Position numbers and translations under genes: made by a program. Positions 8,101 through 59,111 of a stretch of 64,000 nt of DNA are shown in pieces. The DNA lies in contig NW_027017953.1 in NCBI RefSeq assembly GCF_032854445.1, forward strand, positions 1,056,501 through 1,120,500, given 5' to 3'. The DNA comes from Liolophura sinensis. Taxonomy: Eukaryota; Mollusca; Polyplacophora; Chitonida; Chitonidae. The notes beneath the pieces are model-generated. The model had not been told where the DNA came from. It searched no databases and saw nothing but the letters and a program-made list of their open reading frames with translations. Each line of letters opens with the position of its first letter. Position 1 is the stretch's first letter.

Positions 8101-11100
8101 TTAAGTTGATTTTCTTGGTCAGATACATTTGTGGTTATATATACGTGTACGTATGCATATTGCTAGCTATTTCTGTTGTGACATTTACAGGATGCAGTGG
8201 TGGTGGCCCTGAAGAAATATGGGGTGGGCTCATGTGGTCCTCGGGGATTTTATGGAACTATGGGTAAGAGGGCTTGTAGTGAACCCGTAAGCAATGTGTG
8301 AGATGCCAGGTAACCATGGAAATTGTATCCATGTCTCTCTCAGATTAAACAGACTGATTCAAACATTTGTCTGTAGTCGCAGTTATGCAGGCATGTGGAT
8401 TTGCACCGGCCTGTGGGTAGATGTCACAGCGTGTAAGACTGTTCAAATTTTGTACACTCTTTGTTTTATTACTAATATTGTCCTGATCTCAGTTTTTTAA
8501 ATTCATGTGTTTTGTGGTTTCTGTCCCAAAATCTGACTGACATTTTGAAATATTTGCTTTATGAGCGTCTGTAGGATAAATGGGTAAATAAGGTAAGATC
8601 ATCGTATGTATTGATGAATCAAGGCATGAATATTGTTTGTATTTCTGTTCTTGAGTATGATGTAAATTGCCAATCAAATAAATGAGTAAAAGGATCATAG
8701 TGGCATACAGTCATTTTAAGACTTGTGTGTTTGTGGTTTCAGATGTTCATTTGGAGCTGGAGGAGCGCTTAGCCAAGTATATGGGTTGTGAGGAAGCTAT
8801 TGTATACTCTTACGGGTTTGCTACAATAGCCAGCGCCATCCCAGCGTATTCCAAACGAGGGGATGTCATATTCTGGTAAGGTGCCTCTGTCTCCATATGA
8901 GCTCTACAGATCACTAACTTATCCGTCTTATAACTGGCTCAGCTGTTATGATCAGACCTGCTGTAAGATGGTTAACTCTTGACCAGTCAGGTTGATTGTG
9001 TCTTTATGGTTAGATGTTTCTGAAGTACATGACCAGATACGGTGGCACCTTAACTTCAAAGCAGTTTACTGTGCAAAAATTGTGACTTTCCAAATCAATA
9101 TTTATTTTGATGCTAAGATTTGCCTTCCACTTCCATGATAGAATTGAAAATTTTTAGTATGAAGTTCAGATCTCAAGATCTAGGGCCACTGTTCCAGAAC
9201 ACCCTCCTAAGATGTAATTACTATAGCAATCAAGTGTCAACTGGCATCTGTTCATGTTTTTCCATACAGTGATCTGCCTGTTTCCATCAGTGTGCACGCT
9301 AGAACCTTCCGTTTATGTGCGTTAATGGGATGTTGACCTGTATTTCAGTGATGAAGGAGTGTTTATGTGTGTTAATGGGATGTTGACCTGTGTTTCAGTG
9401 ATGAAGGAGTGTTTATGTGTGTAATTGTAATGTTGACCTGTGTTTCAGTGATGAAGGAGTGTTTATGTGTGTAATTGTGATGTTGACCTGTGTTTCAGTG
9501 ATGAAGGAGTGTTTATGTGTGTTAATGGGATGTTGACCTGTGTTTCAGTGATGAAGGAGTGTTTATGTGTGTTAATAGGATGTTGACCTGTGTTTCAGTG
9601 ATGAAGGAGTGTTTATGTGTGTAATTGTGATGTTGACCTGTGTTTCAGTGATGAAGGAGTGTTTATGTGTGTAATTGTAATGTTGACCTGTGTTTCAGTG
9701 ATGAAGGAGTGTTTATGTGTGTTAATGGGATGTTGACCTGTGTTTCAGTGATGAAGGAGTGTTTATGTGTGTTAATGGGATGTTGACCTGTGTTTCAGTG
9801 ATGAAGGAGTGTTTATGTGTGTAATTGTAATGTTGACCTGTGTTTCAGTGATGAAGGAGTGTTTATGTGTGTAATTGTGATGTTGACCTGTGTTTCAGTG
9901 ATGAAGGAGTGTTTATGTGTGTTAATGGGATGTTGACGTGTGTTTCAGTGATGAAGGAGTGTTTATGTGTGTAATTGTAATGTTGACCTGTGTTTCAGTG
10001 ATGAAGGAGTGTTTATGTGTGTAATTGTGATTGAAGGAGTGTTTATGTGTGTTAATGGGATGTTGACCTGTGTTTCAGTGATGAAGGAGTGTTTATGTGT
10101 GTTAATGGGATGTTGACCTGTGTTTCAGTGATGAAGTAGTGTTTATGTGTGTTAATGGGATGTTGACCTGTGTTTCAGTGATGAAGGAGTGTTTATGTGT
10201 GTAATTGTGATGTTGACCTGTGTTTCAGTGATGAAGGAGTGTTTATGTGTGTAATTGTAATGTTGACCTGTGTTTCAGTGGTGAAGGAGTGTTTATGTGT
10301 GTAATTGTGATGTTGACCTGTGTTTCAGTGATGAAGGAGTGTTTATGTGTGTTAATGGGATGTTGACCTGTGTTTCAGTGATGAAGGAGTGTTTATGTGT
10401 GTTAATGGGATGTTGACCTGTGTTTCAGTGATGAAGGAGTGTTTATGTGTGTAATTGTAATGTTAACCTGTGTTTCAGTGATGAAGGAGTGTTTATGTGT
10501 GTAATTGTGATGTTGACCTGTGTTTCAGTGATGAAGGAGTGTGCTTTGCCATACAGAAGGGACTGGTTGCCTCACGCAGTAAAATCTGCTACTTCAAGCA
10601 CAATGATATGCAGGACCTGGAGAGATTACTGAAGATTCAACAAGACGATGATAGAAAGGTATTTATAACTTTTTTGTCACGTGAAAACTATTTATTGTTC
10701 ATGGTACGGATTGAGAATGTAGTATGGCAGTGACATTTGCTCTTTGAAGTTGCAATACTGTCTGGAAAGACAAGGTAAAAATACAATTCCCATGGTTGTG
10801 CTGAAGTAGACCTATGAGGATATGTAGATTTGCTTTGCCTCACACATGTATACATCTTGCTTTGATGTATTTTGCAGAATCCTCGAAAGGCCAAAGTGAC
10901 GAGGAGGTTTTTGGTTGTAGAAGGAATATACGCCAAGTCTGGCAGTATTTGCCCTCTTCCCAAACTGGTAAGGGGAGGAAATCTTGTTATCACAAGCTTT
11001 CTCAAACAGCAGGGGATATTAATTTGGGTTTTCCTGTCTTTCATTTTTTCTCCTCAAAATATTGTCTGGTTTTAATCACATTTAAAATGTTCACTTTGTA

Positions 11101-14100: not shown

Positions 14101-15645
14101 TTTGTACATTGAAACCAGGAAATGCGCACAGCATGATCACAGTAGAGAATGAAGTTTTTATTATCATGGTTTACAAGAAATTAGTAATATATTTTAATTG
14201 TTTTGATGATCATGTAATGTTTGTGCTATTTAGCAGCACTTGCTGAACTGGGACCATTTTGTAAATCAGTATTTCATAACTTTTCTTGTGGCTGTATAAG
14301 CTATAGCCAACATCATTTCCAAGAAATTTACAACTATTCAGAAATATGGCTTCAGTGAAGTTTTGCCTAAGTGATCTCATAATGGTATTAAACAGAAGTA
14401 ACGTTGGACATTGTGTTGTAGAGATGTTTGAGCGGCTGCGTGAGAACTGCAGGAAGGTGCACAAAGGCCTGTCACAGATCCCCGGGATGAAGGTGGATGG
14501 GGTGAGCGTGTCCCCCATCAAACACCTGCGTTTACTGGACCCCTCCCCAGAGAGGGATCTGGATAACCACACCCTTCAGCTCATCGTTGACAAAGCCATC
14601 GACCGGGGGGTGGCATTCACCATGGCCCGCTACCTGGAGAAAGAGGAGCACAAACTTCCACCTCCCAGGTAATTGCTCAGGTATAAATGTTGAGGCAGAC
14701 ACTTCCACCTCCCAGGTAGGTGCTCAGGGCTAAATATTCGGGCACAAACTTTCACCTCCCAGGTAGGTGCTCAGGGCTAAATGTTGGGACACAAACTACC
14801 ACCTCCCAGGTTGGTGCTCAGGGATAAATGTTGAGGCACACACTTCCACCTCCCAAGTAGGTGCTCAGGTGTAAATGTTGAGGCAGACACTTCCACCTCC
14901 CAGGTAGGTGCTCAGGGCTAAATGTTGAGGCACAAACTACCACCTCCCAGGTAGGTGCTCAGGGCTAAATGTTGAGGCACACACTTCCACCTCCCAGGTA
15001 GGTGCTCAGGGCTAAATATTCGGGCTCAAACTTCCAGCTCCCAGGTAGGTGCTCAGGGCTAAATGTTGAGGCACAAACTTCCACCTCACAGGTAGGTGTC
15101 CAGGGCTAAATGTTGAGGCACACAGGGCTAATTGTTGGAGATTTGTCAACCTGGCCTCTGTCATGGCAATGAGCTTACATTTAGGTGTGGAGAAATGAAT
15201 GATCAGGGCTTAAATGGTGTCACACTAATAGTTTGCCATTTTAGTCGCGACCTTGGCTGTTTATATGCAGGAAATGTTCCTGCTTTATCTAGAACCAGTG
15301 GAAATCACAGTAAATATTCTTGCTGTCAGTAAATTAAAAAAAGAAAAGAACCAGTCTCATTATAGCGCTGGCTGTTTGTGCATTGTTGATTCCACTTGAT
15401 CATTAGGCAGACAAAGTGTGACTGTTGAAGATGAAAAGCTCTGTATTGTTGAGTATGATTGATGAGTGTTGTTTGATGACTGCTTTTTCTGTTTCAGTAT
15501 TCGTGTGTCTGTAAACAGTAAGCTGTCAGATGAGGAGATCCAGAAGGCTGTGTCTGTTCTCACCTCTGTCTGTAAGGCTGTCCTCAACACCAGGTACAAT
15601 TCTCACAAGTTTACTTCTCATTCAGTCAGTCAGGTGAAATTGTGA
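2114..15645 (+). CDS. SPTLC1: Serine palmitoyltransferase long-chain base subunit 1, whole coding span (13 exons)
   Basis: Encodes the large, non-catalytic subunit of serine palmitoyltransferase, which with SPTLC2 condenses serine and palmitoyl-CoA in the ER membrane, the first step of sphingolipid synthesis. The spliced reading is 495 residues (human about 473) with every intron phase matching. An N-terminal amphipathic stretch is followed by a membrane segment ([11 protein letters not shown], residues about 33-43), then the aminotransferase-like fold with [32 protein letters not shown] and [11 protein letters not shown]. The cysteine equivalent to human C133, mutated in hereditary sensory neuropathy, is present. 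No PLP-binding lysine is expected in this subunit. Introns 3, 6, 10 and 12 carry minisatellites, and those in introns 6 and 12 duplicate splice sites. It is convergent with CYB5RL. The start is the first in-frame ATG. The C terminus is the least certain part. Confidence 0.95.
2765..3226 (+). mobile_element. tRNA-derived SINE-like element in SPTLC1 intron 1
   Basis: Contains a B-box-like gggtcgaatc near 2935, a central block with tcgcttggcgtttagcat at about 2979, and a 3' end with cgtcatatggctgaaaaatt and acgacgttcaaccccaag followed by a CACT-rich tail. This arrangement resembles SINEs common in mollusc genomes. Short frames across it are accidental. Confidence 0.6.
3982..4086 (+). CDS. SPTLC1: SPTLC1 exon 2
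   Basis: 35 codons beginning [15 protein letters not shown], covering the membrane segment; acceptor ttgtag, donor gtaggg, phase 0 at both ends. Confidence 0.95.
4492..4595 (+). CDS. SPTLC1: SPTLC1 exon 3
   Basis: Encodes [16 protein letters not shown] and on to IIH; acceptor ttgtag, donor gtatgg, ends in phase 2. The donor runs almost directly into the 47-bp array. Confidence 0.93.
4597..6195. repeat. 47-bp minisatellite in SPTLC1 intron 3 (about 34 copies)
   Basis: Units carry ctctacatgaggggctgatt followed by ccacaagcccttcctcactc. The array begins within a few bases of the exon 3 donor, but the unit holds no exon sequence. Variation is mostly substitution. Confidence 0.93.
6690..6954 (+). 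mobile_element. Diverged SINE fragment, left arm of an inverted repeat
   Basis: Positions 6770-6815 match the middle of the SINE at 40077 (catgggaaagtttgtcagca, then a cctgcagatgg core). Positions 6838-6954 form one arm of an inverted repeat with 7598-7714. Lies in SPTLC1 intron 3. Confidence 0.6.
7598..7805. mobile_element. Diverged SINE fragment, right arm of an inverted repeat plus SINE tail
   Basis: Positions 7598-7714 are the reverse complement of 6838-6954, both 117 bases. From about 7745 the sequence matches the common SINE 3' end (aagtgaaatattcttt, then gtaaaacaccaat and a caaataaat tail). Confidence 0.6.
7870..7963 (+). CDS. SPTLC1: SPTLC1 exon 4
   Basis: Encodes [20 protein letters not shown] and [11 protein letters not shown]; acceptor ttctccag, donor gtaaga. 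Enters in phase 2 and ends in phase 0. Confidence 0.95.
8191..8263 (+). CDS. SPTLC1: SPTLC1 exon 5
   Basis: Encodes [20 protein letters not shown] and YGTM; contains the conserved cysteine of the SCGPRGFYG motif. Donor gtaaga, ends in phase 1. Confidence 0.95.
8743..8875 (+). CDS. SPTLC1: SPTLC1 exon 6
   Basis: Encodes [20 protein letters not shown] and the highly conserved [20 protein letters not shown]; acceptor tttcag, donor gtaagg, ends in phase 2. The next acceptor is the last of about 25 duplicated copies. Confidence 0.96.
9309..10542 (+). repeat. 50-bp minisatellite carrying the SPTLC1 exon 7 splice acceptor (about 25 copies)
   Basis: Each unit contains the intron end ttgacctgtgtttcag followed by the first 14 bases of exon 7 (tgatgaaggagtgt) and then a short linker starting ttatgtgtg. 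Linkers come in two types, gttaatggga and gtaattgtra, interspersed. One unit near 10030 lacks about 30 bases and its acceptor. The last copy is the real exon 7 start at 10529, where tgtttatg is replaced by tgtgctttgcc. Nearly all decoy acceptors keep a perfect pyrimidine tract and AG. Confidence 0.95.
10529..10658 (+). CDS. SPTLC1: SPTLC1 exon 7
   Basis: Encodes [20 protein letters not shown] and [15 protein letters not shown]; completes the split TG-T cysteine codon of exon 6. Donor gtattt, ends in phase 0. Its first 14 bases are repeated upstream. Confidence 0.95.
10878..10967 (+). CDS. SPTLC1: SPTLC1 exon 8
   Basis: 30 codons: [20 protein letters not shown] then [10 protein letters not shown]; acceptor tttgcag, donor gtaagg, phase 0. 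Confidence 0.96.
11305..11412 (+). CDS. SPTLC1: SPTLC1 exon 9
   Basis: 36 codons including [19 protein letters not shown] and [11 protein letters not shown]; acceptor ttttag, donor gtgagt, phase 0. Confidence 0.96.
11621..11716 (+). CDS. SPTLC1: SPTLC1 exon 10
   Basis: 32 codons with [20 protein letters not shown] and [11 protein letters not shown]; acceptor ccacgcag, donor gtaagg, phase 0. Confidence 0.96.
11815..13000. repeat. 64-65-bp minisatellite in SPTLC1 intron 10 (about 18 copies)
   Basis: Units contain attggattctgctctgattg, a gggttttgggtttgtgatgg block and atgtaccttgtcc. The minus-strand frame is open for over 400 codons (Asn/Gln/His-rich) simply because the unit lacks stops there. 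Confidence 0.93.
13750..13846 (+). CDS. SPTLC1: SPTLC1 exon 11
   Basis: Encodes [20 protein letters not shown] and ALNVMEEKP; acceptor gttacag, donor gtgagt, ends in phase 1. Confidence 0.96.
14422..14668 (+). CDS. SPTLC1: SPTLC1 exon 12
   Basis: The longest exon: [20 protein letters not shown] through [19 protein letters not shown]; acceptor gttgtag, donor gtaatt, ends in phase 2. Its last 20 or so bases are the seed of the array that follows. Confidence 0.95.
14648..15125 (+). repeat. 47-bp minisatellite carrying the SPTLC1 exon 12 donor (about 10 copies)
   Basis: Each unit repeats the exon 12 end cacaaacttccacctcccag and a donor, then gtgctcagggctaaat. The real junction is the first copy with donor gtaatt. 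The decoys mostly read CAG|gtaggt, which looks at least as strong. Ends at about 15125 in a truncated unit. Confidence 0.93.
15498..15645 (+). CDS. SPTLC1: SPTLC1 exon 13 (terminal coding exon as read)
   Basis: Acceptor tgtttcag, completes the split serine codon, then [20 protein letters not shown] and SVCKAVLNT align with the conserved C terminus. Read through, it adds [17 protein letters not shown] and stops at 15643-15645. A donor-like AG|gtacaa at about 15595 lies where related proteins end, so a further tiny exon is possible. Confidence 0.8.
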
Positions 15646-15654
15646 GACTACTTT

Positions 15655-18287: not shown

Positions 18288-18312
18288 ACACACACACACA
18301 CACACACACACA
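18288..18312. repeat. (CA)n microsatellite
   Basis: About 12 uninterrupted CA dinucleotides. Confidence 0.95.
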
Positions 18313-21371: not shown

Positions 21372-24300
21372 CTGTATAAACGAATGGGTAACACTGGGTT
21401 AAAGTTTTATTGATTCTGCTATATTCTCTACACTGCTATATTCTCTCCTCTGATCAATTTATATGTACAACACACATTCTGTAAGTTATGAAAATATATA
21501 TATACATCTATATGAAATTTAAAATTATTCTTGCACATATGGGCTTTGATATATATTTTGAATCCCTATACACATTGTGCAGACTGTAGCGTAGGTTTGA
21601 ACCCACAGAAATAGACGACAACATCCTTCTGTTACTTCACCATCATTATGGTGCAGGTTTTTTACCATTCTCACAGGAGTTTGGAATCAAAAACAAACCT
21701 ACAGCATGACACCAACTTTCCAGGTCCATCTCCTTGGAGGTTTCATACATCTCGTCAGCCTTGTAGGCAACCAGACTTTAAATTTACAGACTGAACTGTT
21801 AATTAACAAGTTTTCAAAACATTATGGTGGTGGTACCTGGGTTAGGATGTAGAGGATGGTGACATTCCAGTAGGCTGAGCACTCCTCCAGCTGAGACTTC
21901 AACAACAGGTCTTCATACCTCTTACAGGTGTACACCAGCAACAGTCGTGTATCATCCCGCTCGTTAATAATCACCTGTCTGATTACCTGTATCATGGGAG
22001 CTATACCTGTGCCAGCTGCCAGGAGGACCAGCCTCTGCCACTGTAAGCAGAAAATAAGGGTAGACAACTCACACCATAAACAGTGACTGAATACTTGACA
22101 GCTGTCAGTATAGGACCAGCCTCTGCCACAGTAAGGAGATAATCAGGGTAGACAACTCACACCATAAACACTGACTGAATTACTGAATACAAGACGCTCA
22201 TGAAACTTCTTCCATTATATTACCCCATGAGGTGTGCAGAGCCCTGGTCTCTTTTAAATGTTGATATTAAAGCTACAGCTGATCCTGTGGTATGTTTTTA
22301 ACCTCTGACCTCCTGGTCAATGAGTGACTAGCAATAATTTGACTCTGTGGAGCCAAGAAAACAGCTTTCCATATAACCTGGACTTTTCCTATTTATTTCA
22401 TTAGTGTTTTACATGATACTCAGGAATATTTCATTCCTATGACAGCGGCCAGTATTAGGGTGGGAGGAAACCTGTCTCATCTGCAGATTGCTGGCAGATG
22501 GCTTTCCACTTGGTGTCTTCCATGTCAAGATGTACAAATGTTCTGCACACAACATACCTTGTTTGGTGAATATGAGAACCTTCCACAGGGCCCTCTCAAT
22601 TCCACTTTGTCTCCTGTTTTGAGGGCTTTGACATGTCTGGACATCCTGCCATCAGGGTATATCTAAATCATATCATGCATAAAATATTAATTACGTTAGA
22701 AAAAGAAAGGTAATCAATTTATCTAGCAAAGACTCTTGAGAAAACTTTCAGGAGAGAATCCCAGGCACAGAATGCCTTATAGTAGTGAAAAACAAAAATT
22801 TCATGCATCTTGAAACTGAAGATGACTTAATCATGTGGTATGAAGTCAATAATTTTCAGCATCTGCAGGAGAGAATCCATCAATTACCTTAATTAGAAGA
22901 TCAAAGTAGCCGAGAGCATGAAGTGGGCTGACGGGGGTGTACTGTCGCGTGATCACTCTGCCATCCCCAATTACCCTGCAATCACACAACTAGACATTAG
23001 AGCTGGGTAATGTTTGTGATGTGTAATGCAGAGCTATTCCAAAGACTGTCACACCATGTGTGCTTTCATAATAAAATAAAACCCCATTTTCACACTGATA
23101 CACCAAAAAATATGCGTGAATGCAAATTTAATTGATAAACTCTATTCTGATGACAATTCTGTATGTGTTAAACTGCACCTCGCACACCTGTGGAGGTACA
23201 TGTATGGGTGGCACGCTTGTGGAGGTATGGGAGGCACGTCTGTGGAGGTATGAGTGGCACAGCTGTGGAGGTATAGATGGCACACCTGTGGAGGTACGAG
23301 TGGCACAACTATGGAGGTATGGCTGGAACAGCTGTGAAGGTATGGATGGCACAGCTGTGGAGGTACATGTATGGGTGGCACGCTTGTGGAGGTATGGGAG
23401 GCACGTCTGTGGAGGTATGAGTGGCACAACTATGGAGGTATGGCTGGGACAGCTGTGAAGGTATGGATGGCACAGCTGTGGAGGTACATGTATGGGAGGC
23501 ACGTCTGTGGAGGTATGAGTGGCACAGCTGTGAAGGTATGGATGGCACAGCTGTGGAGGTACATGTATGGATGGCATAGCTGTGGAGGTATAGGTCGCAC
23601 AGCTGTGGAGGTATAGATGGCACACCTGTGGAGGTGCGAGTGGCACAACTATGGAAGTATGGCTGGAACAGCTGTGAAGGTATGGATGGCACAGCTGTGG
23701 AGGTAAATGTATGGATGGCATAGTTGTGGAGGTATAGGTCGCACAGCTGTGGAGGTATAAGTGGTACACCTGTGGAGGTATAAGTGGCACACCTGTCGAG
23801 GTATGGGTGGCACACCTGTTGAGGTATGCGATGGGCCATTCAACACATGCACATTTAAGTACAGATGTACCTAATATTACTTGCCTCATGATAATATGTT
23901 GGCCAGTATGCAGACCCAGGCACTTTCCATCAGGAAGTTGAAATCTCAGAACATAAGTATCACAGCTTTCTTGCTTTATGCTTGATATAGAAAAGTATCT
24001 GTATTCACACTCAGAGAGAGTAGGTATCTGAAATTGTAAAACATAAAAAACTGACAAAACAGTTATCTCCATATTCACTGACAATGCCACAGGCACGAAA
24101 TGTTGATTTGATCTCATGGGATTTGAATTACACGGATTCTGTATCAACCATCAGTGATCAGACAGGGAAGTATCCAGGATTATACGTGTGCTCAACCATC
24201 AGTGATCAGACAGGGAAGTATCCAGGATTATACGTGTGCTCAACCATCAGTGATCAGACAGGGAAGTATCCAGGATTATACTTGTGCTCAACCATCAGTG

Positions 24301-27300
24301 ATCAGACAGGGAAGTATCCAGGATTATACCTGTGCTCAACCATCAGTGATCAGACAGGGAAGTATCCAGGGTAATACGTGTGCTCAACCATCAGTGATCA
24401 GACAGGGAAGTATCCAGGATTATACGTGTGCTCAACCATCAGTGATCAGACAGGGAAGTATCCAGGATTATACGTGTGCTCAACCATCAGTGATCAGACA
24501 GGGAAGTATCCAGGATTATACGTGTGCTCAACCATCAGTGATCAGACAGGGAAGTATCCAGGGTAATACGTGTGCTCAACCATCAGTGATCAGACAGGGA
24601 AGTATCCAGGATTATACCTGTGCTCAACCATCAGTGATCAGACAGGGAAGTATCTAGGATTATACGTGTGCTCAACCATCAGTGATCAGACAGGGAAGTA
24701 TCCAGGATTATATCTGTGCTCAACCATCAGTGATCAGACAGGGAAGAATCCAGGATTATACCTGTGCTCAACCATCAGTGATCAGACAGGGAAGTATCCA
24801 GGATTATACCTGTGCTCAACCATCAGTGATCAGACAGGGAAGTATCCAGGATTATACCTGTGCTCAACCATCAGTGATCAGACAGGGAAGTATCCAGGAT
24901 TATACCTGTGCTCAACCATCAGTGATCAGACTGGGAAGTATCCTGGATTATACGTGTGCTCAATCATCAGTGATCAGACAGCGAAGTATCCAGGATTATA
25001 CGTGTGCTCAACCATCAGTGATCAGACAGGGAAATATCCAGGATTATACGTGTGCTCAACCATCAGTGATCAGACAGGGAAGTATCCAGGATTATACGTT
25101 TGCTCAACCATCAGTGAACAGACAGGGAAGTATTCAGGATTATATGTGTGCTCAACCATCAGTGATCAGACAGGGAAGTATCCAGGATTATACGTATGCT
25201 CAACCATAAGTGATCAGACAGGGAAGTATCCAGGATTATACGTGTGCTCAACCATCGGTGATCAGAGAGGGAAGTATCCAGGATTATACGTGTGCTCAAC
25301 CATCAGTGATCAGACAGGGAAGTATCTAGGATTATACGTGTGCTCAACCATCAGTGATCAGACAGCGAAGTATCCAGGATTATATGTGTGCTCAACCATC
25401 AGTGATCAGACAGGGAAGTATCCAGGGTTATACGTGTGCTCAACCATCAGTGATCAGACAGGGAAGTATCCAGGATTATACGTATGCTCAACCATCAGTG
25501 ATCAGACAGGGAAGTATCCAGGATTATATCTGTGCTCAACCATCAGTGATCAGACAGGGAAGTATCCAGGATTATACGTGTGCTCAACCATCAGTGATCA
25601 GACAGGGAAGTATCCAGGATTATATCTGTGCTCAACCATCAGTGATCAGACAGGGAAGTATCCAGGATTATACCTGTGCTCAACCATCGGTGATCAGACA
25701 GGGAAGTATCCAGGATTATATGTGTGCTCAACCATTGGTGATCAGACAGGGAAGTATCTAGGATTATACGTGTGCTCAACCATCAGTGATCAGACAGGGA
25801 AGTATCCAGGATTATACGTGTGCTCAACCATCAGTGATCAGACAGGGAAGTATCCAGGATTATACGTGTGCTCAACCATCAGTGATCAGACAGGGAAGTA
25901 TCCAGGATTATACGTGTGCTCAACCATCAGTGATCAGACAGGGAAGTATCCAGGATTATACGTGTGCTCAACCATCAGTGATCAGACAGGGAAGTATCCA
26001 GGATTATATCTGTGCTCAACCATCAGTGATCAGACAGGGAAGTATCCAGGATTATACGTGTGCTCAACCATCGGTGATCAGACAGGGAAGTATCCAGGAT
26101 TATACGTGTGCTCAACCATCGGTGATCAGACAGGGAAGTATCCAGGATTATACGTGTGCTCAACCATCAGTGATCAGACAGGGAAGTATCCAGGATTATA
26201 CGTGTGCTCAACCATCAGTGATCAGACAGGGAAGTATCCAGGATTATACGTGTGCTCAACCATCAGTGATCAGACAGGGAAGTATCCAGGATTATACGTG
26301 TGCTCAACCATCAGTGATCAGACAGGGAAGTATCCAGGATTATACGTGTGCTCAACCATCAGTGATCAGACAGGGAAGTATCCAGGATTATACGTGTGCA
26401 GAAAACTGTGAAGTCTCAGTCAGAGGCTCTCCAAAAATCATACTAACAACTGGTTGTGGCGGAAGATGCATTAAAATGAACTTACAATTTCTGAAGTTAG
26501 TGCTTTGTTGGCGACGTTAAGAGAAGCTTTACTGCCTTAGTTGAAATGGACCTCCTGCTGTCACACGTTTGTGCAATTTAGCCAGAGTTTAAAGAAAAGG
26601 AGACTGACTTACAAGACTCTGGTTTACCTAGATATCTGCTCCTGTAGATATGTGAACACTGTATGTGTTTTTCTATTTAAAGTGACTATAGCAAATAATT
26701 TCAGGTTAGGGTGCACTTTATTCTCACGTGTCAACCTAGCAAATCTGTACACCACACAATGACTAAAGGTCTCCTTTATTTTTATGTAATTTGTACACCA
26801 GACAATGAGGAAAGGTCTCCTTTATTATTATATAATCTGTACACCAGACAATGACTCAAGATCTCTTTTATTTTTATGTAATTTGTACACCAGACAATGA
26901 CTAAAGGTCTCCTTTATTATTATGTAATTTGTACACCAGACAATGACTCAAGATCTCTTTTATTATCATATAATTTGTACACCAGACAATGACTAAAGGT
27001 CTCCTTTATTATTATATAATTTGTACACCAGACAATGACTAAAGGTCCCCTTTATTATATATAATTTGTACACCAGACAATGACTAAAGGTCTCCTTTAT
27101 TATATATAATTTGTACACCAGACAATGACTAAAGGTCTCCTTTATTACTATATAATCTGTACACCAAACAATGACTGAAGCCACAATCATATATAATAAA
27201 ATGAAAAGAAAAATAAATTAAAAAGGAACCGCAGAAGAGTTCACAGGCTTGGAAGAAGGCAGGTGTGATCTCTGTGCAGACTTTTCATGTATATCTATAA

Positions 27301-38300: not shown

Positions 38301-41300
38301 ATGTTGGTAATGCCGATGTGCAATAAGAATGTTGGTAATGCCAGTATGCGGCATGAATGTTGTTAATGCCGATGTGCAGTAAGAATGTTGGTAATGCCGG
38401 TATGCATTATGAATGTTGTTAATGCCGATGTGCAATATGAATGTTGTTAATGTCAATGTGCAATAAGAATGTTGGTAATACTGGTGTGCAATAAGAATGT
38501 TGGTAATGCCAGTATGCAGTATGAATGTTGTTAATGCCTATGTGCAATAAGAATGTTGGTAATGCCGGTATGCAATAATTATGCTTGTAATACTTTTCAT
38601 TTGCTTTTGTTTAAATGCATGCCGTGAAGAAATGGTTTTATTCTGCACCCGGCTGTAGATTTCCATGGTTTATGGCCATGGTTTGGGAAAAAACCATGAA
38701 AAAAGTATGGGAATGGTGGAATTTGTGTGGAAAGCAGGGACATTTTCCATGTATTGACATGGACAGCTCATGGCTTGTACATGTATTTTCTACAGGTACA
38801 GCCCATGACTTGTCCATGTATTTTCTGCAGGTACAGTCCATGGCTTGTACATGTATTTTCTGCAGGTACAGCCCATGGCTTGTACATGTATTTTCTGCAG
38901 GTAGAGCCTGTTGCTTATACATGTATTTTCTGCAGGTAGAGCCCATGACTTGTCCATGTATTTTCTGCAGATACAGCCCATGACTTGTCCATGTATTTTC
39001 TGCAGGTACAGCCCATGGCTTGTACATGTATTTTCTGCAGGTAGAGCCCATGACTTATCCATGTATTTTCTGCAGGTACAGCCCATGACTTGTCCATGTA
39101 TTTTCTGCAGGTACAGCCCATGGCTTGTACATGTATTTTCTGCAGGTACAGCCCATGGCTTGTACATGTATTTTCTGCAGGTAGAGCCTGTTGCTTATAC
39201 ATATATTTTCTGCAGGTAGAGCCCATGACTTGTCCATGTATTTTCTGCAGGTACAGCCCATGACTTGTCCATGTATTTTCTGCAGGTACAGCCCATGGCT
39301 TGTACATGTATTTTCTGCAGGTACAGCCCATGACTTGTCCATGTATTTTCTGCAGGTAGAGCCTGTTGCTTATACATGTATTTTCTGCAGGTACAGCCCA
39401 TGACTTGTACATGTATTTTCTGCAGGTACAGCCCATGGCTTATACATGTATTTTCTGCAGATACAGCCCATGACTTGTACATGTATTTTCTGCAGGTATA
39501 GCCCATGACTTGTACATGTATTTTCTGCAGGTACAGCCCATGGCTTGTGCATGTATTTTCTGCAGGTACAGCCCATGGCTTATACATGTATTTTCTGCAG
39601 GTACAGCCCCTGGCTTATACATGTATTTTCTGCAGGTACAGCAGAAGATGTACATGTATTTTCTGCAGGGAACACTGCTGGCTTGTAAATATATTTTCAG
39701 CAGGTACAGCAGCTGCCTTGTACATGTATTTTCTGCAGGTACAGCCCATGGCTTGTACATGTATTTTCTGCAGGTACAGCCCATGACTTGTCCATGTATT
39801 TTCTGCAGGTACAGCCCATGGCTTGTACATGTATTTTCTGCAGGTACAGCCCATGGCTTGTACATGTATTTTCTGCAGGTAGAGCCTGTTGCTTATACAT
39901 GTATTTTCTGCAGGTACAGCCCATGGCTTGTACATGTATTTTCTGCAGGTAGAGCCCATGGCTTGTCCATGTATTGTCTGCAGGTAGAGCCTGTTGCTTA
40001 TACATGTATTTTCTGCAGGTACAGCCCATGGCTTGTACATGTATTTTCTGCAGGTAGAGCCCATGGCTTGTATTACGGGGCCTTCTTGGCTCAGTTAGTT
40101 AGCATGCTAGCGCAGCGTAATGACCCAGGAGTCTTCCACCAATGCGGTCGCTGTCAGTTCAAGTCCAGCTCATGCTGGCTTCCTCTCCGGCCGTACGTGG
40201 GACGGTCTGGCAGCAACCTGCGGATGGTTGTGGGTTTCCCCCGGGCTATGCCCGGTTTCTGCCCACCATAATGCTGGCCGCCATCGTATAAGTGAAATAT
40301 TCTTGAGTACGGCATAAAACACCAATCAAATAAATATCTAAAATTGTACGTGTATTTTCTGCAGGTACAGCCCATGGCTTGTACATGTATTTTCTGCAGG
40401 TACAGCCCATGACTTGTATTTTCTGCAGGTACAGCCCATGACTTGGACATGTATTTTCTGCAGATACAGCCCATGACTTGTACATGTATTTTCTGCAGAT
40501 ACAGCCCATGACTTGTACATGTATTTTCTGCAGATACAGAACATGACTTGTACATGTAGTAATCCACTTTATGCCATGTTTTTGTTGCAGATTTATATAC
40601 TTTTGATTCATCTGAAGAAAATGCAAAGGAAACTTATGAGAGAATTAACAATGCCTACATCAGTATATTCAACAGGCTACACTTAAATTATATTAGAGGT
40701 GAGTGGTAAATTGATTCTCACAAACTGATCTTTGGGCACTAATCTGCCAGCATTAATCTGTCACTGTTTTATAATGTATAATTTCTGTGTGAAGGCTACC
40801 ATGCCACATGGTCTGCATTTTTTGTGTGGTGAAGCCTTACTGATGTTTTAAGGTGATTAGGTAAAATTTGTGACATGAGGTTACCCAAGGCTTCTACAAT
40901 GGTCATCCTGAAGTCTAATGTTTTAAATAGGAGTCGTCCTGAAAGCAGGAAGTAAAGCTACATGGTATTTGCATGACAAACCTTTGATCTGTACACACGC
41001 ACAAAATTACGATTAATAAAGCCTTAAACTTCACTCAGTTTTGCAGCCCTTGGAACATGTAGGTCTACAAACTATTGAGGAACTACAGAAATTGTATTGA
41101 AGTGTTGTAGTCTTTATTGGTTGAACACTCTATTTGAGTCACACCTTTGGCAGATGAGGATGTGAGTTCAAATCCCACTCTGTTCCAGTTGCTGGGGACT
41201 CTGGTGCTATAGGGGGAGATCTGTCTCATGAGTTTCACATCCTAGCAGATATAGGACAGGACAAACTTCTCATTTGTTCAGAGTAAGTTCAATGTTCTGC

Positions 41301-44300: not shown

Positions 44301-45634
44301 TAGGTTTCTCCTGGGTTATGCCTGGTTTCCTCCCACAATAATGCCGGCTGCTGTAAAATAAGGAAAGTGTTCTTGAGTATGGCGTAAAACATTAACCAAA
44401 TAATTAAGTAAATATCATTCTCTGTCTATAATTCATTCATGATTTCATTCTGTTAATAATTTTTTTAAAAAACCCTAAATTTTCCTAAAAGTGTCTGAAA
44501 TGAGCATCCTGGTTGCAGTTGTGATGAGTGACACAATGAAGGCCTGAAATCTCTGCTAATCTTCCACACGTACATGTCATTACACACCTGTCAATCAGTA
44601 ATTAATAAATCAGTTAATACTGTGTTTGCAGGCAGGCTATAAAGCAGGTGTGTGTTTGGATTTAGCGGAGTGCCTGTCTGATCGCCTCTCATTGAATGCC
44701 GCACTAACAAATGAGGTTGTGATAGATGACAGGACGCAGATGACCATCGGCAAACGACTGTACGAAGCCAAGAGATTAGGGTTTCCTTACATAGTTGTGG
44801 CTGGAAAAACGGTAAAACCGCTGTAACCCACATAATTAAACCTGATCTTAAATCTCATCTTCTGTAAATCTTCTACATTTTTGACCTTTAAAGCACTTTT
44901 TTTCAGTGAAATTTATACATTTAATTACTATTAAAATATTTCTTTACACCCCTTAGTTCTCTCAGAATGATTAAAAATATTGGCTTCAAAGATAGTTGAA
45001 GAGGTTGAAGAATTACAGTATTTATGATATGATGGAAAACACTGGTGTCATCAATAAATGAAGATATTCATGATGTCCTACATAGAAGCAATGAGGGGTT
45101 ACTTTGATATTTTTGATACAGTCAGTCCTACCTGCATACCGAATGTTAAGGTACATGTTAGGGTGTACTGGGACATCCTAACATTGCTATGTGGTAAGAT
45201 TTAAAGGGAACAACCAGGGTCAGTCTGGAACATCTTGTGTATGTGGATATTTTGAAGCCATCAGGAGATATTCAGTGATATAATTCATGGTACCTGTATT
45301 TTCCTTTCCGTTCGGAGTAAGCCATATTGACTGTTCAGTGCGTTGTCAGTCCATGCTTTATCCTAAGTATTTGCCAAATGCTATATAAATAAGGAACAGG
45401 TAAACCCTATGCAATTGCAATACATTATGTTATAATTATTTGACAATTTTACTTTTTCAGCTTGAGTATTTGGTTTTGTACGAATTTCTCTCTTGGTTTA
45501 TGTTTTACCAGGCTTTACAGACGCCTGCCATGTTTGAAGTGATAGAGGTAGCCTCTGGAGCCACAGAGACAATGACAGAGGATCAGCTGTTTGATAAACT
45601 CTCCTGTATAGAGACAATACCCTGTCATTCTTGA
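32096..45634 (+). CDS. PARS2: Mitochondrial proline-tRNA ligase, whole coding span (13 exons)
   Basis: Class II aminoacyl-tRNA synthetase that charges mitochondrial tRNA-Pro with proline. Spliced length is 493 residues (human 475), all phases consistent. The N-terminal 70 residues are rich in Arg, Ser and Leu with few acids, fitting a matrix-targeting sequence. Motif 2 is in [20 protein letters not shown], followed by DLYTFDSS. The bacterial-type [11 protein letters not shown] segment and two Cys pairs (CSDC and CSRSDC) follow. Motif 3 is [12 protein letters not shown]. The anticodon-binding domain includes [20 protein letters not shown] and IVVAGKT. Introns 3, 4, 5 and 10 are loaded with minisatellites, and the end of the last exon is itself tandemly duplicated. 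Confidence 0.95.
32970..33147 (+). CDS. PARS2: PARS2 exon 2
   Basis: Encodes [40 protein letters not shown] and [10 protein letters not shown]; acceptor tataag, donor gtgagt, ends in phase 1. Confidence 0.95.
33337..33410 (+). CDS. PARS2: PARS2 exon 3
   Basis: Encodes [20 protein letters not shown] and YCLGP; acceptor gaatag, donor gtaagt, ends in phase 0. Its last 31 bases plus donor seed the following 37-bp array. Confidence 0.95.
33378..34655 (+). repeat. 37-bp minisatellite made of PARS2 exon 3 end plus donor (about 34 copies)
   Basis: A unit is gtaagt followed by cagacatgacatggactatt and gcctggggcc, so about 31 of 37 bases are exon-derived. Two classes exist: live units ending ggggcc(a/g/t)gtaagt, and a minority ending catggcctataagt in which the donor GT is AT. 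The first junction at 33410/33411 is the real one. Confidence 0.95.
35240..36370. repeat. 41-bp minisatellite in PARS2 intron 3 (about 27 copies)
   Basis: Units hold aaggccgtaaaatggtagtt and ctgatgccaacacttcacat, with a second class carrying agctgtgatgacaac. The two classes are mixed along the array. No exon sequence is included. Confidence 0.93.
36577..36654 (+). CDS. PARS2: PARS2 exon 4
   Basis: 26 codons: [20 protein letters not shown] and PIMLYQ; acceptor ttctcag, donor gtacag, phase 0. Together with exon 3 it forms the LGPTHEE motif. Confidence 0.96.
36865..37725. repeat. 40-bp minisatellite in PARS2 intron 4 (about 21 copies)
   Basis: Units read gtgtgaattaatgtccagat then atctgcgacacgtgt and gtgta or ctgta. 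One unit near 37150 is three bases short. It ends about 130 bases before exon 5. Confidence 0.93.
37856..37928 (+). CDS. PARS2: PARS2 exon 5
   Basis: Encodes [20 protein letters not shown] and FEMK, class II motif 2; acceptor atttcag, donor gtaagc, ends in phase 1. Confidence 0.97.
38020..38580. repeat. 28-29-bp minisatellite in PARS2 intron 5 (about 19 copies)
   Basis: Units such as atgttgctaatgctggtatg ccatatga and a second class with gttggtaatgccgatgtgca. The first part and second part of the array are dominated by different classes. Confidence 0.88.
38760..40066. repeat. 35-bp minisatellite in PARS2 intron 5, part 1 (about 37 copies)
   Basis: The unit is gtacagcccatggcttgtac then atgtattttctgcag. 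Each junction reads attttctgcag|gtacag, a 3' splice site set directly against a 5' splice site. Minor variants carry gtagagcctgttgc. The array continues after a SINE insertion. Confidence 0.94.
40077..40340 (+). mobile_element. tRNA-derived SINE inserted in the 35-bp array
   Basis: Starts ggggccttcttggctcagtt with an A-box-like tRNA head, has a B-box-like cagttcaagtccagc, a middle block gcagcaacctgcggatggtt and a 3' end ttgagtacggcataaaacac followed by a caaataaat tail. Well preserved and in plus orientation. Confidence 0.85.
40345..40548. repeat. 35-bp minisatellite in PARS2 intron 5, part 2 (about 6 copies)
   Basis: Continuation of the array interrupted by the SINE at 40077; it ends about 45 bases before exon 6. 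One copy is shortened (acttgtattttctgcag). Confidence 0.92.
40591..40698 (+). CDS. PARS2: PARS2 exon 6
   Basis: Encodes [20 protein letters not shown] and [16 protein letters not shown]; acceptor ttgttgcag, donor gtgagt, ends in phase 1. Confidence 0.96.
41105..41188 (+). mobile_element. tRNA-like SINE remnant abutting PARS2 exon 7
   Basis: gagttcaaatccc at 41164-41176 is a near-perfect B box with a Leu/Ser-tRNA-like upstream stretch. The exon 7 acceptor ctgttccag lies only 12 bases further on. No 3' tail follows, so it is at most a remnant. Confidence 0.35.
41189..41282 (+). CDS. PARS2: PARS2 exon 7
   Basis: Encodes [20 protein letters not shown] and [10 protein letters not shown]; the GxIGGxxSHEF motif is diagnostic of prolyl-tRNA synthetases. 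Acceptor gttccag, donor gtaagt, ends in phase 2. Confidence 0.94.
41851..41882 (+). CDS. PARS2: PARS2 exon 8, 32-base microexon
   Basis: Acceptor tgtccatag, then [11 protein letters not shown], donor gtaagg. It restores the phase between exons 7 and 9 and completes a C-x2-C-x4-N-x-E pattern ([11 protein letters not shown]) as in human PARS2. A B-box-like ggtcgaaacc follows at about 41904, so a SINE may lie alongside. Confidence 0.78.
41890..41998 (+). mobile_element. Possible SINE fragment after the PARS2 microexon
   Basis: gggtcgaaacctgg is B-box-like, and the stretch ends in cagataaataaatgaataa, the A/T-rich tail type of other SINEs here. The head would overlap the microexon if tRNA-derived. 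Confidence 0.35.
42536..42606 (+). CDS. PARS2: PARS2 exon 9
   Basis: Encodes [20 protein letters not shown] and GIE; supplies the second Cys pair. Acceptor gttacag, donor gtgtgt, ends in phase 0. Confidence 0.9.
42751..42830 (+). CDS. PARS2: PARS2 exon 10
   Basis: Encodes [20 protein letters not shown] and TETGKQ; acceptor tttgcag, donor gtaagt, ends in phase 2. Confidence 0.95.
42965..43200. repeat. Imperfect 25-28-bp repeat in PARS2 intron 10 (about 8 copies)
   Basis: Copies of gatttattacacctgtca with variable linkers such as cacactgattc. Diverged. Confidence 0.75.
43255..43600 (+). repeat. 27-bp pyrimidine-rich minisatellite leading into the PARS2 exon 11 acceptor (about 13 copies)
   Basis: Units of ctgccacccctcctctgtga taatggc. 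The last unit runs straight into the acceptor ctctttctcccag, so the polypyrimidine tract seems to have been expanded in tandem. Confidence 0.9.
43609..43744 (+). CDS. PARS2: PARS2 exon 11
   Basis: Encodes [20 protein letters not shown] and [20 protein letters not shown]; class II motif 3 (GLGVTR). Acceptor tctcccag, donor gtaacc, ends in phase 0. Confidence 0.97.
44144..44410 (+). mobile_element. tRNA-derived SINE in PARS2 intron 11
   Basis: Same family as 40077: ggggcctcagtggccgaggt head, gtgagttcaagtccagctca B-box region and ttgagtatggcgtaaaacat 3' end. More diverged in the middle. Plus orientation. Confidence 0.85.
44632..44811 (+). CDS. PARS2: PARS2 exon 12
   Basis: 60 codons: [40 protein letters not shown] and [10 protein letters not shown], the anticodon-binding domain; acceptor gtttgcag, donor gtaaaa, phase 0. 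Confidence 0.96.
45512..45634 (+). CDS. PARS2: PARS2 exon 13 (terminal)
   Basis: Encodes [20 protein letters not shown] and [20 protein letters not shown] then TGA; acceptor ttaccag. From 45541 on, the exon is the first unit of a 102-bp tandem array. Confidence 0.93.
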   Translation, partial: ALQTPAMFEVIEVASGATETMTEDQLFDKLSCIETIPCHS

Positions 45635-45945
45635 CAAGAACTGATATAGGTAGCCTCTGGGGCCACAGAGACAATGACAGAGGATCAGCTGTTTGATAAA
45701 CTCTCCTGTATAGAGACAATACCCTGTCATTCTTGACAAGATGTGATATAGGTAGCCTCTGGAGCCACAGAGACAATGACAGATGATCAGCTGTTTGATA
45801 AACTCTCCTGTATAGAGACAATACCCTGTCATTCTTGACAAGAACTGATATAGGTAGCCTCTGGAGCCACAGAGACAATGACAGAGGATCAGCTGTTTGA
45901 TAAACTCTCCTGTATAGAGACAATACCCTGTCATTCTTGACAAGG
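45541..45945 (+). repeat. PARS2: 102-bp tandem array of the PARS2 C-terminal coding end (4 copies)
   Basis: Copies start at 45541, 45643, 45745 and 45847, exactly 102 bases apart, nearly identical. Each holds 30 codons of the exon, the TGA stop and 9 linker bases. In copies 2-4 the first codons read ATA TAG instead of ATA GAG, so a second stop has been added. Confidence 0.95.
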
Positions 45946-52600: not shown

Positions 52601-55600
52601 TTGTGTGGTGTCATTGTTTTGTGACTGGATGGAGCCTCATGCCATTGTGTGGTGTCATTGTTTTGTGACTGGATGGAGCCTCATGCCATTGTGTGGTGTC
52701 CGTGTACTGTGACTGGATGGAGCCTCATGCCATTGTGTGGTGTCATTGTACTGTGACTGGATGGGGCCTCATGCCATTGTGTGGTGTCATTGTTTTGTGA
52801 CTGGATGGAGCCTCATGCCATTGTGTGGTGTCAGTGTACTGTGACTGGATGGGGCCTCATGCCATTGTGTGGTGTCAGTGTACTGTGACTGGATGGGCCT
52901 CATGCCATTGTGTGGTGTCATTGTTTTGTGACTGGATGGAGCCTCATGCCATTGTGTGGTGTCAGTGTACTGTGACTGGATGGGGGCCTCATGCCATTGT
53001 GTGGTGTCAGTGTACTGTGACTGGATGGGGCCTCATGCCATTGTGTGGTGTCAGTGTACTGTGACTGGATGGGGGCCTTGTGATTGTGTGGTATCAGTGT
53101 ACTGTGACTGGATGGGGCCTCGTGATTGTGTGGTGTCAGCATAGTGTGAGTTGATGGGGCCTGTTGATTGTGTGGTGTCGGTGATGTCTTGTGTATGACA
53201 TGGTATTTCAGTAATACAGAAGAATAAGTGCCTTCACTGGGATTAGCCTTTTACCAGGAGGTCATTACAGAAATATCGAAACCAACCAGGCAAGCAAACA
53301 ATCACTTTGCTGAGATAAGTACTTGTTGGTTGTGTGCAGTATTCTGTGATGTCCATGGCATGGCATTGCAGTGAGGCAGCATTCTGAATGGTGATCTTCT
53401 ACTTACAGAGACCCCCATTTTGGTATACATTAGGTGTCTGCAAGATGTGTTGTCTGAATGATTAACTTGTGTGCATAAATCTGTTGGAGTTTCCATGATG
53501 ATGTAAACAACCTAATGTGGCAGTCGAGTTTTGGGATTATTTGTAGAAATTTGAGGAAGTTCCTGCGGTTGGTATATTTTCACTGAGATTGAGTGACAAG
53601 AAAGCTGGAGATACATGTTGCTTTATGCAAATGACATTGTTTCCATGGAAACCAAGTGGCTTAGCAAGAATACATCCCATAGCTGAAGAAGAAAAGAGCT
53701 GCTGGAAAGAAAGATTAAGGGAATGTTTACCTGCTTTGACTGAATCTTCTCTTCATTGTGACATGGTGACTTTGAGATACATTCCCACATTCCCAAGGTC
53801 AACAAGGACATAGAGGCACCCACAGATAGATCTTTGGGAAAACTTGAACCGGTTGACTTCCTGCAGTCATTGCTGACAAAAGACGATACACTGGAAAAAC
53901 TTTCGTCACAACTAATAGATGTTCTTAAAAAAGCTGTCCAGGTTCGAGTCAGCTGTATAAGTAAAACCGGCGGTCCCGAGCAGAATGAACCAAGAGAGTG
54001 GTGCTGATTTGTGTTCCTGTCAGTCTAGAGAACAAGTACAAAGTGATGCGTTTGCTAATGGTTTGTAGTGGAGAGGTTCAAATCCAGCTGGAACAACAGG
54101 TACCTAGTCTCTGTGAGGATTTGAAGAATGCAGAACGTAAGGCAAACTTTGAAGACAATCATAGTCAAGCAGTAGACCTAAACTCATCAAAAATGACTCA
54201 AATTTGTGAACCCCGAAAAAGCAGTGTAGCCATTTTGTTTTCTGGAGGTCTTGACTCAACTGTGATCGCTGCCTTGGCTGATAGGTAAGGTTATTTTTCA
54301 CTTTAAGTTTTCTGGTATAAATGGCATGAAAACAGACATTTCAACTCTTGTAGCTTGGCACATTATTTGGCAAATTCAGATTTTCATTCATTAGAAACTA
54401 TCACAGATGTTGGCTTTAATGAGAAACTGACATGACAAAAACTACATCTGCATATTTACTTTAAAATATGACAAATTCAACACCTTTTGTTGTTAATAGT
54501 GACGTATGAGTCCATGAAGTTATTTCTTCTTTTCAGTCTGAACCACACAACAAGTTCAGTGGGTCTAGCAGTAACAAGGTTGTTGTTCTCTTATGGAGTG
54601 GCAAAAGTTGCATTTTGTAACAAAATAAACCCATTACAGGAAGCCCATGTAAAGCAAAAACAATACGTACACAATCGGCAGTATCATCCTTCATTGTCTT
54701 CTAAAAGACGTTAAACCTCACTTAATCACTCACTCTCTCGTCTGAAAGTCGCCGCCATATGACGACGTTCAACCTCAATCACTCACTCGCTCTTCTAAAA
54801 GTTGCCGCCATATGGCGACGTTTCAACCTCAGTCACTCACTCGCTCTTCTGAAAGTCCGCCGCCATATGACGACGTTCAACCTCAATCACTCACTCGCTC
54901 TTCTGAAACTTGCCGCCATATGACGACATTCAACCTCAATCACTCACTCTCTTTTCTGAAACACGCCGCCATATGACGACATTCAACCTCAATCACTCAC
55001 TCTCTCTTCTGAAAGTCGCCGCCATATGACGACGTTCAACCTCAATCACTCACTCGCTCATCTAGACATCTAGTTAGTGGTAGTTTGAGTTATAATTTCC
55101 TTGTTTCAGATGTTTGCCAGAAGATGAACCGATTGACCTGTTGAATGTTGCTTTTGAACAGAAATCCAAACCACATGTTGAGAAAACCAGCAAGCACAAA
55201 GGGCCGGGCAGGTAGGGAAAGCTTGGGTCATTCCAGTAGACTCCAGGGGTATAATGTGGGTAAGAACAGAAATCCAAACCACATGCTGAGAAAACCAGCA
55301 AGCACAAAGGGCCGGGCAGGTAGGGAAAGCTTGGGTAATTCCAGTAGAGACTCTAGGGGGTAAAATGTGGGTAAAAACAGAAACCCAAACCACAAGCTGA
55401 GAAAACCAGCAAGCACAAAGGGCCGGGCAGGTAGGGAAAGCTTGGGTCATTCCAGGAGACTCCAGGGGTATAATGTGGGTAAGAACAGAAATCCAAACCA
55501 CATGATGAGAAAACCAGCAAGCACAAAGGGCCGGGCAGGTAGGGAAAGCTTGGGTCATTCCAGTAGAGACACCAGGGGATATAATGTGGGTAAGAACAGA

Positions 55601-58600
55601 AATCTAAACCACATGCTGGGAAAACCAGCAGGCACAAAGGGCCGGGCAGGTAGGGAAAGCTTGGGTCATTCCAGTAGAGACTCCAGGGGGTATAATGTGG
55701 GTAAGAACAGAAATCCAAACCACATGCTGGGAAAACCAGCAAGCACAAAGGGCCGGGCAGGTAGGGAAAGCTTGGGTCATTTCAGTAGAGACTCCAGGGG
55801 GTATAATGTGGGTAAGAACAGAAATCCAAACCACATGATGAAAAAACCAGCAAGCACAAAAGGCCGGGCAGGTAGGGAAAGCTTGGGTCATTCCAGGAGA
55901 CTCCAGGGGGTATAATGTGGGTAAGAACAGAAATCCAAACCACATGCTGGGAAAACCAGCAAGCACAAAGAGCCGGGCAGGTAGGGAAAGCTTGGGTCAT
56001 TTCAGTAGAGACTCCAGGGGGTATAATGTGGGTAAGAACAGAAATCCAAACCACATGATGAGAAAACCAGCAAGCACAAAGGGCCGGGCAGGTAGGGAAA
56101 GCTTGGGTCATTCCAGGAGACTCCAGGAGGTATAATGTGGGTAAAAACAGAAATCCAAACCAGATGATGAGAAAACCAGCAGGCACAAAGGGCCGGGCAG
56201 GTAGGGAAAGCTTGGGTTATTCCAGTAGAGATTCCAGGGGATAAAATGTGGGTAAGAACAGAAATCCAAACCACATGCTGAGAAAACCAGCAAGCACAAG
56301 GAGCCGGGAAGGTAGAGAAAGCTTGGGTCATTCCAGGAGACTCCAGGGGATAAAATGTGGGTAAAAACAGAAATCCAAACCACATGCTGAGAAAACCAGC
56401 AAGCACAAGGAGCCGGGCAGGTAGAGAAAGCTTGGGTCATTCCAGGAGACTCCAGGGGGTATAATGTGGGTAAGAACAAAAATCCAAACCACATGCTGGG
56501 AAAACCAGCAAGCACAAGGAGCCGGGCAGGTAGAGAAAGCTTGGGTCATTCCAGGAGACTCCAGGGGATAAAATGTGGGTAAAAACAGAAATCCAAACCA
56601 CAAGCTGAGAAAACCAGCAAGCACAAAGGGCCGGGCAGGTAGAGAAAGCTTGGGTCATTCCAGTAGAGACTCCAGGGGATATAATGTGGGTAAGAACAGA
56701 AATCCAAACCACATGCTGGGAAAACCAGCAAGCACAAAGGGCCGGGCAGGTAGGGAAAGCTTGGGTCATTCCAGTAGAGACTCCAGGGGATAAAATGTGG
56801 GTAAGAACAGAAATCCAAACCACATGCTGGGAAAACCAGCAAGCACAAAGGGCCGGGCAGGTAGGGAAAGCTTGGGTCATTTCAGTAGAGACTCCAGGGG
56901 GTATTATGTGTGTAAGAACAGAAATCCAAACCACATGATGAGAAAACCAGCAAGCACAAAGGGCCGGGCAGGTAGGGAAAGCTTGGGTCATTCCAGGAGA
57001 CTCCAGGGGGTATAATGTGGGTAAAAACAGAAATCCAAACCACATGCTTTGAAAATCAGCAAGCACAAAGGGCCGGGCAGGTAGGGAAAGCTTGGGTCAT
57101 TTCAGTAGAGACTCCAGGGGATAAAATGTGGGTAAGAACAGAAATCCAAACCACATGCTGAGAAAACCAGCAAGGACAAGGAGCCGGGCAGGTAGAGAAA
57201 GCTTGGGTCATTCCAGGAGACTCCAGGGGATAAAATGTGGGTAAAAACAGAAATCCAAACCACATGATGAGAAAACCAGCAGGCACAGAAGGCCGGGCAG
57301 GTAGGGAAAGCTTGGGTCATTCCAGTAGAGACTCCAGGGGATATAATGTGGGTAAGAACAGAAATCCAAACCACATGCTGGGAAAACCAGCAAGCACAAA
57401 AGGCCAGGCAGGTAGGGAAAGCTTGGGTCATTTCCAGGAGACTCCAGGGGGTATAATGTGGGTAAGAACAGAAATCCAAACCACATGATGAGAAAACCAG
57501 CAGGCACAGAAGGCCGGGCAGGTAGGGAAAGCTTGGGTCATTCCAGTAGAGACTCCAGGGGATATAACGTGGGTAAGAACAGAAATCCAAACCACATGCT
57601 GGGAAAACCAGCAAGCACAAAAGGCCAGGCAGGTAGGGAAAGCTTGGGTCATTTCCAGGAGACTCCTGGGGGTATAATGTGGGTAAGAACAGAAATCCAA
57701 ACCACATGATGAGAAAACCAGCAGGCACAAAATTTATTTATTTATTTATTTGATTGGTGTTTTACGCCGTACTCAAGAATATTTCACTTATACGACGGCG
57801 GCCAGCATCATGGTGGGTGGAAACCGGGCACAGCCCGGGGGAAACCCACGACCATCCGCAGGTTGCTGACAGACCTTCCCACTTACGGCCGGAGAGGAAG
57901 CCAGCATAAGCTGGACTTGAACTCACAGCGACCGCATTGGTGAGAGGCTCCTGGGTCATTACGCTGCGCTAGCGCGCTAACCGGCTGAGCCACGGAGGCC
58001 CCAGCAAGCACAAAAGGCCGGGCAGGTAGGGAAAGCTTGGGTCATTCCAGGAGACTCCAGGGGGTATAATGTGGGTAAGAACAGAAATCCAAACCACATG
58101 CTGGGAAAACCAGCAAGCACAAAGAGCCGGGCAGGTAGGGAAAGCTTGGGTCATTTCAGTAGAGACTCCAGGGGGTATAATGTGGGTAAGAACAGAAATC
58201 CAAACCACATGATGAGAAAACCAGCAAGCACAAAGGGCCGGGCAGGTAGGGAAAGCTTGGGTCATTCCAGGAGACTCCAGGGGGTATAATGTGGGTAAAA
58301 ACAGAAATCCAAACCAGATGATGAGAAAACCAGCAGGCACAAAGGGCCGGGCAGGTAGGGAAAGCTTGGGTCATTTCAGTAGAGACTCCAGGGGGTATAA
58401 TGTGGGTAAAAACAGAAATCCAAACCACATGATGAGAAAACCAGCAGGCACAAAGAGCCGGGCAGGTAGAGAAAGCTTGGGTCATTGCAGGAGACTCCAG
58501 GGGATAAAATGTGGGTAAGAACAGAAATCCAAACCACAAGCTGAGAAAACCAGCAGGCACAAAGGGCCGGGCAGGTAGGGAAAGCTTGGGTCATTCAGGC

Positions 58601-59111
58601 AGAGACTCCAGGGGGTATAATGTGTGTAAGAACAGAAATCCAAACCACAAGCTGAGAAAACCAGCAGGCACAAAGGGCCGGGCAGGTAGGGAAAGCTTGG
58701 GTTATTCCAGTAGAGACTCTAGGGGGTAAAATTTGGGTAAGAACAGAAATCCAAACCACAAGCTGAGAAAAGCAGCAGGTGCAAAGGACCGGGCAGGTAG
58801 GGAAAGCTTGGGTCATTCCAGTAGAGACTCCAGGGGGTAAAATGTGGGTAAGAACAGAAATCCAAACCACGTGCTGAGAAAAGCAGCAGGCACAAAAGGC
58901 CGGGCAGGTAGGGAAAGCTTGGATCATTCCAGGAGACTCCACGGGGTAAAATGTGGGTAAGAACAGAAATCCAAACCACATGCAGAGAAAACCAACAAGC
59001 ACAAAGGGCCGGGCAGGTAGAGAAAGCTTGGGTTATTCCAGAAGACTTCAGGGGTATAATGTGGGTAAGAACATGTGTAATGTGTAGAGCTTAAGCGAAA
59101 ACTACTCATAT

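Follow-up and report, generated by a model that had tools for sequence, protein, structure and literature searches.

The stretch of chiton (Liolophura sinensis) DNA analysed here, 64,000 nucleotides long and hereafter called the window (C14:1056501-1120500), contains the genes SPTLC1, CYB5RL, PARS2 and ASNSD1 together with dozens of tandem arrays, which were detected with Tandem Repeats Finder. The majority of these arrays contain no junction and most lie entirely within introns; four of them, confirmed in the sequence itself, cross a true splice junction, namely the acceptor and a donor of SPTLC1, a donor of PARS2 and a donor of ASNSD1. Tandem arrays are unusually abundant in the window: they occupy approximately one third of its bases, against 12.5% of the gene neighbourhoods sampled. 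Two arrays with a 48-bp unit (24144-26399 and 59371-62345) give rise, the unit length being divisible by three, to mechanical open reading frames of 614 and 1036 amino acids, for which no evidence of being genes was found.

Arrays at the junctions of the four genes

SPTLC1 is affected at two junctions. Its acceptor array (9311-10542, forward strand), defined by Tandem Repeats Finder and by the sequence itself, has a 50-bp unit repeated ~24 times and ends with the copy that carries the real acceptor site (AG|T at 10528|10529), the first 14 bp of the exon 10529-10658 (same strand) being inside the array; the splice dinucleotide is kept in 23/23 of the other copies. The donor array (14648-15122, forward strand; ~10 copies of a 47-bp unit) includes 21 bp of the exon 14422-14668 and has the real donor in its first copy. 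All nine of the other copies keep the GT and seven of them score at least as high as the true donor, whose score of 4.6 is below that of most of its copies (median 6.8). When the exons are joined through the exon-proximal sites, 285 residues align to human SPTLC1 with no gaps, the exon ending at the real donor continuing gaplessly over the junction to IRVSV, and the unit that the original prediction had designated as the real one is thus the right one.

The same holds for PARS2, in which the exon 33337-33410 (forward strand) ends at the real donor and has a gapless protein join to the next exon: with the exon-proximal site, 162 residues align without gaps to the bacterial-type prolyl-tRNA synthetase, through ...YYCLGP|THEEAVT..., again in agreement with the predicted real unit. 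The donor array of this gene (33380-34656, forward strand) is made of ~35 copies of a 37-bp unit, includes 31 bp of the exon and keeps the GT in 24 of the 33 other copies found. A second array, four copies of a 102-bp unit located by Tandem Repeats Finder at 45536-45944 on the same strand, involves the terminal coding exon and crosses the stop codon but no splice site. Within a PARS2 intron lies a further array (38763-40558), in which TTTTCTGCAG|GTAC occurs in most units and provides a strong AG|GT signal where no exon is present; the array may be what remains of a lost exon, or else raw material for a new one.

In ASNSD1 the exon 55110-55211 (forward strand; CLPEDEPIDLLNVAFEQKSKPHVEKTSKHKGPG) ends at the real donor, and the array that crosses it extends from 55156 to 59073 and includes 56 bp of the exon. 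It is split into a first block (55156-57731; ~23 copies of a 111-bp unit, with the GT retained in 22/22 other copies) and a second one with the same unit (58001-59073), both on the forward strand and both found by Tandem Repeats Finder, by a tRNA-derived SINE recognized by direct reading of the sequence on the reverse strand (57733-58000). Directly past the donor the reading frame meets a TAG (AGG TAG). The next exon was not found within the window, so that this junction rests on exon homology and donor consensus. A tRNA-derived SINE is also present in the PARS2 intron array (40073-40343) and, since the SINEs sit inside both arrays, the latter are older than the insertions.

The CYB5RL repeat is of a different kind. 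The segment at the acceptor side of the exon 21838-22043, containing the real site (22024-22092, reverse strand), when compared with the neighbouring intron sequence recurs once (22112-22180, reverse strand); the two 69-nt copies are 93% identical and 88 bp apart, and as there are only two of them a minisatellite is ruled out. Another exon of this gene (23884-24027, reverse strand) has an apparent GC donor (CATGAG|GCAAGT). The original prediction had spoken of six duplications including a real splice site or a terminal exon: the four junction arrays and the PARS2 stop-codon array bear this out, whereas CYB5RL does not supply a minisatellite. The repeats observed are real and that observation was largely right.

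That they are a product of the assembly, in which repeats had been collapsed or expanded, is scarcely credible; tandem arrays can indeed be misassembled, but the assembly was built from PacBio HiFi reads whose mean length of 8.3 kb (PMC11068029) exceeds every junction array, the units differ in sequence from one another and two arrays carry SINE insertions.

The splice dinucleotide is kept in nearly all array copies, which often score near the true site. Selection for spare donors, by which extra copies of the 5' splice site would aid U1 recruitment or buffer weak donors, would account for this retention, as well as for the SPTLC1 donor array with its low-scoring true site. However, the copies do not outscore the true site in most of the other arrays, and use of a decoy would mostly cause a frameshift (units of 37, 47 and 50 bp) or reach a stop, as in ASNSD1; selection of this kind is considered very improbable.

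Junction crossing and random placement

The premise that chance would rarely include exon ends is not confirmed in the window, where, considering arrays no more than 190 bp from its junctions, 4 crossing arrays are found vs 2.3 expected (P = 0.19). In the null model used here an array with a unit u of at least 20 bp has its exon-facing edge anywhere from u inside the exon to 190 bp inside the intron, so that the chance of crossing under random placement is ~u/(u+190).

The excess was assessed in exon neighbourhoods that were independent of the window and were picked solely by Pfam hits from the genome (one haploid assembly of 609,464,459 bases in 632 contigs). Sample A comprises 50 merged regions (200.6 kb) with 97 exons of CCT/HSP60, myosin and ALDH genes and sample B 70 regions (56.8 kb) with 76 exons of kinesin and adaptin genes, making ~257 kb and 173 exons, all from conserved gene families. 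The placing of splice sites took into account their consensus score, the reading frame and how near they were to the hit, the exon ends coming from homology and consensus rather than from transcripts.

Junction-crossing arrays recur in these samples, in CCT, myosin, ALDH, kinesin and adaptin genes; 15 were found at the 173 exons, the near-array cases being curated by eye with the question known to the curator, vs 7.7 expected for donors and acceptors pooled (P = 0.005). The excess is entirely on one side: 13 donors are crossed vs 5.5 expected (P = 0.001), whereas acceptors show no excess (2 vs 2.2 expected), the ratio of 13:2 being itself significant (P = 0.007). Each sample taken separately yields the donor excess (7 vs 3.1 and 6 vs 2.4 expected; P = 0.019 for each), which is maintained when the intron stretch is shortened to 100 bp (13 vs 7.0 expected, P = 0.006) and when only arrays with at least 3 copies are considered (10 vs 4.7 expected, P = 0.009). 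Together with the window, 16 donors and 3 acceptors are crossed. Junction crossing thus exceeds chance moderately, an excess confined to the 5' ends of introns; of the “shared rule” that had been proposed for these junctions, what stands is the recurrence in the genome and the excess at donors, while acceptors are at expectation, the window count does not depart significantly from chance and most arrays are wholly intronic.

Three candidates were set aside upon inspection by eye or reclassified: in L111 the array begins ~57 bp past the donor, in L017 it reaches the acceptor yet extends a mere ~1 bp into the exon, and L073 (hit C11:29422443-29422616) turned out to be a stop-codon case instead of a splice-site crossing. 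The latter is an ALDH9A1-like terminal exon in which a 79-bp, 3-copy array extends from the last codons over the stop codon, resembling the PARS2 array at 45536-45944. In both L055 and L017 the exon is flanked on its two sides by different minisatellite arrays, which in L055 are both within ~16 bp of the junctions.

Composition, position and polarity

The GC content of the arrays is 0.42 vs 0.36 in background introns (P = 7e-7) and exon ends are likewise GC-rich. When positions are weighted by the GC preference learned from non-crossing arrays, the expectation for donors rises to 8.1, so that part of the donor excess is due to composition; the 13 observed then correspond to a 1.6-fold excess (P = 0.03), and for acceptors 3.0 are expected vs 2 observed. 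It could be held that the placement of arrays is random relative to the junctions and that the donor excess is nothing but small numbers and composition, as the window count, the acceptors and the modest P value left by the GC correction would allow. Nevertheless, the excess appears independently in both samples and persists with arrays of at least 3 copies, and pure chance is judged unlikely.

A second possibility is that the junction itself is the target, a transcription-time event at the exon-intron boundary starting the duplications preferentially at 5' splice sites, about 1 donor in 13 bearing an array of intact, ignored decoy donors; candidate triggers would be break repair, R-loops forming on the GC-rich end of the exon or a polymerase that pauses at the donor. 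In addition to the donor excess seen in each sample, this possibility is favored by the distribution of array starts in sample A, which amount to 0.64 per kb within 0-100 bp of donors, 0.43 at 101-200 bp and 0.05-0.16 out to 1200 bp, that is ~0.5 per kb up to 200 bp from the donor vs ~0.1 farther away (P = 0.001), although the far bins may hide unannotated exons; the median intron between known exons is 633 bp. On the acceptor side of the same sample the array starts show no significant trend (P = 0.23). The lack of an acceptor excess and the partial loss of the donor excess upon GC correction speak against it, and so does the strand GC skew of the arrays, which is not clearly distinct from that of the background (P = 0.17); moreover, donor-like motifs as nucleation sites are not significantly enriched in intronic arrays (with a low threshold 5/48 vs 4.7% expected, with a high one none, a comparison of low power). 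Birth targeted to the junction can thus be entertained only tentatively, and is rather doubtful.

The real site is found in the first unit at donors and in the last one at acceptors, an arrangement that had been taken as a sign of growth outward from the junction. It is instead a geometric necessity: an array that crosses a donor has to begin in the exon end, the reverse being true for acceptors, and since any other arrangement would put repeats within the coding sequence and destroy the protein, the polarity is a consequence of protein conservation. Nor do the arrays bear any trace of outward growth, the similarity between units not decaying with distance along the array (0.92 for adjacent and 0.95 for distant units of the SPTLC1 acceptor array; 0.93 and 0.94, respectively, in ASNSD1), and outward growth was rejected as unsupported. 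The units of two arrays that were searched for were found nowhere but at their own locus, which indicates that these two arrays arose locally.

The reading that best accommodates these data, to which we assign a probability of roughly 60%, is that of locally born tandem duplications, tolerated as long as one terminal copy stays intact, with some preference for the donor side. A segment of ~30-110 bp would first undergo tandem duplication at its own locus, the resulting array being later expanded and homogenised through unequal exchange or slippage. The first duplication may land anywhere in or beside an intron, GC-rich DNA being hit more often; should it cover a junction or a stop codon, the terminal copy would still provide an intact exon end and the mutation would be tolerated, while a duplication within the exon body would be eliminated by selection, a filter that alone would yield the polarity. 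Stop codons are in fact crossed alongside splice sites, both in PARS2 and in the ALDH9A1-like gene. A moderate preference for the 5' side of introns, with none at acceptors, would be superimposed, and splicing would have to pick the copy nearest the exon in the presence of many intact decoys, as the continuity of the proteins suggests. Random birth followed by tolerance leaves the residual donor excess that survives GC correction without explanation.

Relation to known systems

The structure is one already known as the “mirage” minisatellites of amphioxus, described in Adh3, the globins BflGb6 and BflGb9, troponin C and PGBD5, for which RT-PCR suggested normal splicing, somatic instability was shown and a way of gaining introns was put forward (PMC3087553, PMC3902484), and it is here found in a mollusc. 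In both cases tandem repeats cross the exon-intron boundary of ordinary conserved genes, with units that in amphioxus range from tens to ~160 bp; both 5' and 3' intron ends are affected and many copies retain their AG/GT signals. Unlike in amphioxus, the copy numbers are above the 3-6 units reported for BflGb6, the arrays have been counted against random expectation and are donor-biased, and the phylum is Mollusca, prior reports having been restricted to cephalochordates; the likeness is one of structure and no common origin is claimed. Normal splicing, which in amphioxus relies on RT-PCR, would in the chiton be suggested only indirectly, by the gapless SPTLC1 and PARS2 proteins. The literature searched contains neither an earlier molluscan report nor a genome-wide count of such arrays.

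Within-gene tandem duplication that copies splice signals is also the basis of the Rogers model of intron gain from duplicated AG/GT proto-splice sites (potato RdRp, PMC4974935; Drosophila, PMC2891723). In the chiton, unlike in that model, the copies lie in an existing intron and adjoin its real splice site, and an intron having both splice sites in one array was found neither in the window genes nor in the 47 introns of the samples for which the exon on either side is known. Internal tandem repeats likewise overlap gene structure in human segmental duplications, where they alter exon structure (PMC2812944); those cases are paralogue-specific, whereas the chiton arrays affect single genes whose protein sequence is kept.

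In amphioxus the mirages were reported for one gene at a time, and a count against chance was not found in the literature searched. The count made here in a second phylum indicates that local tandem duplication and tolerance account for most of the pattern, leaving a residue at donors only, which, if upheld genome-wide, would point to a transcription-linked cause. The decoy arrays represent natural experiments on the choice of the spliceosome among many equal donors or acceptors and, should transcription-linked births at donors prove true, chitons would offer a large natural test set for first-donor choice and intron gain.
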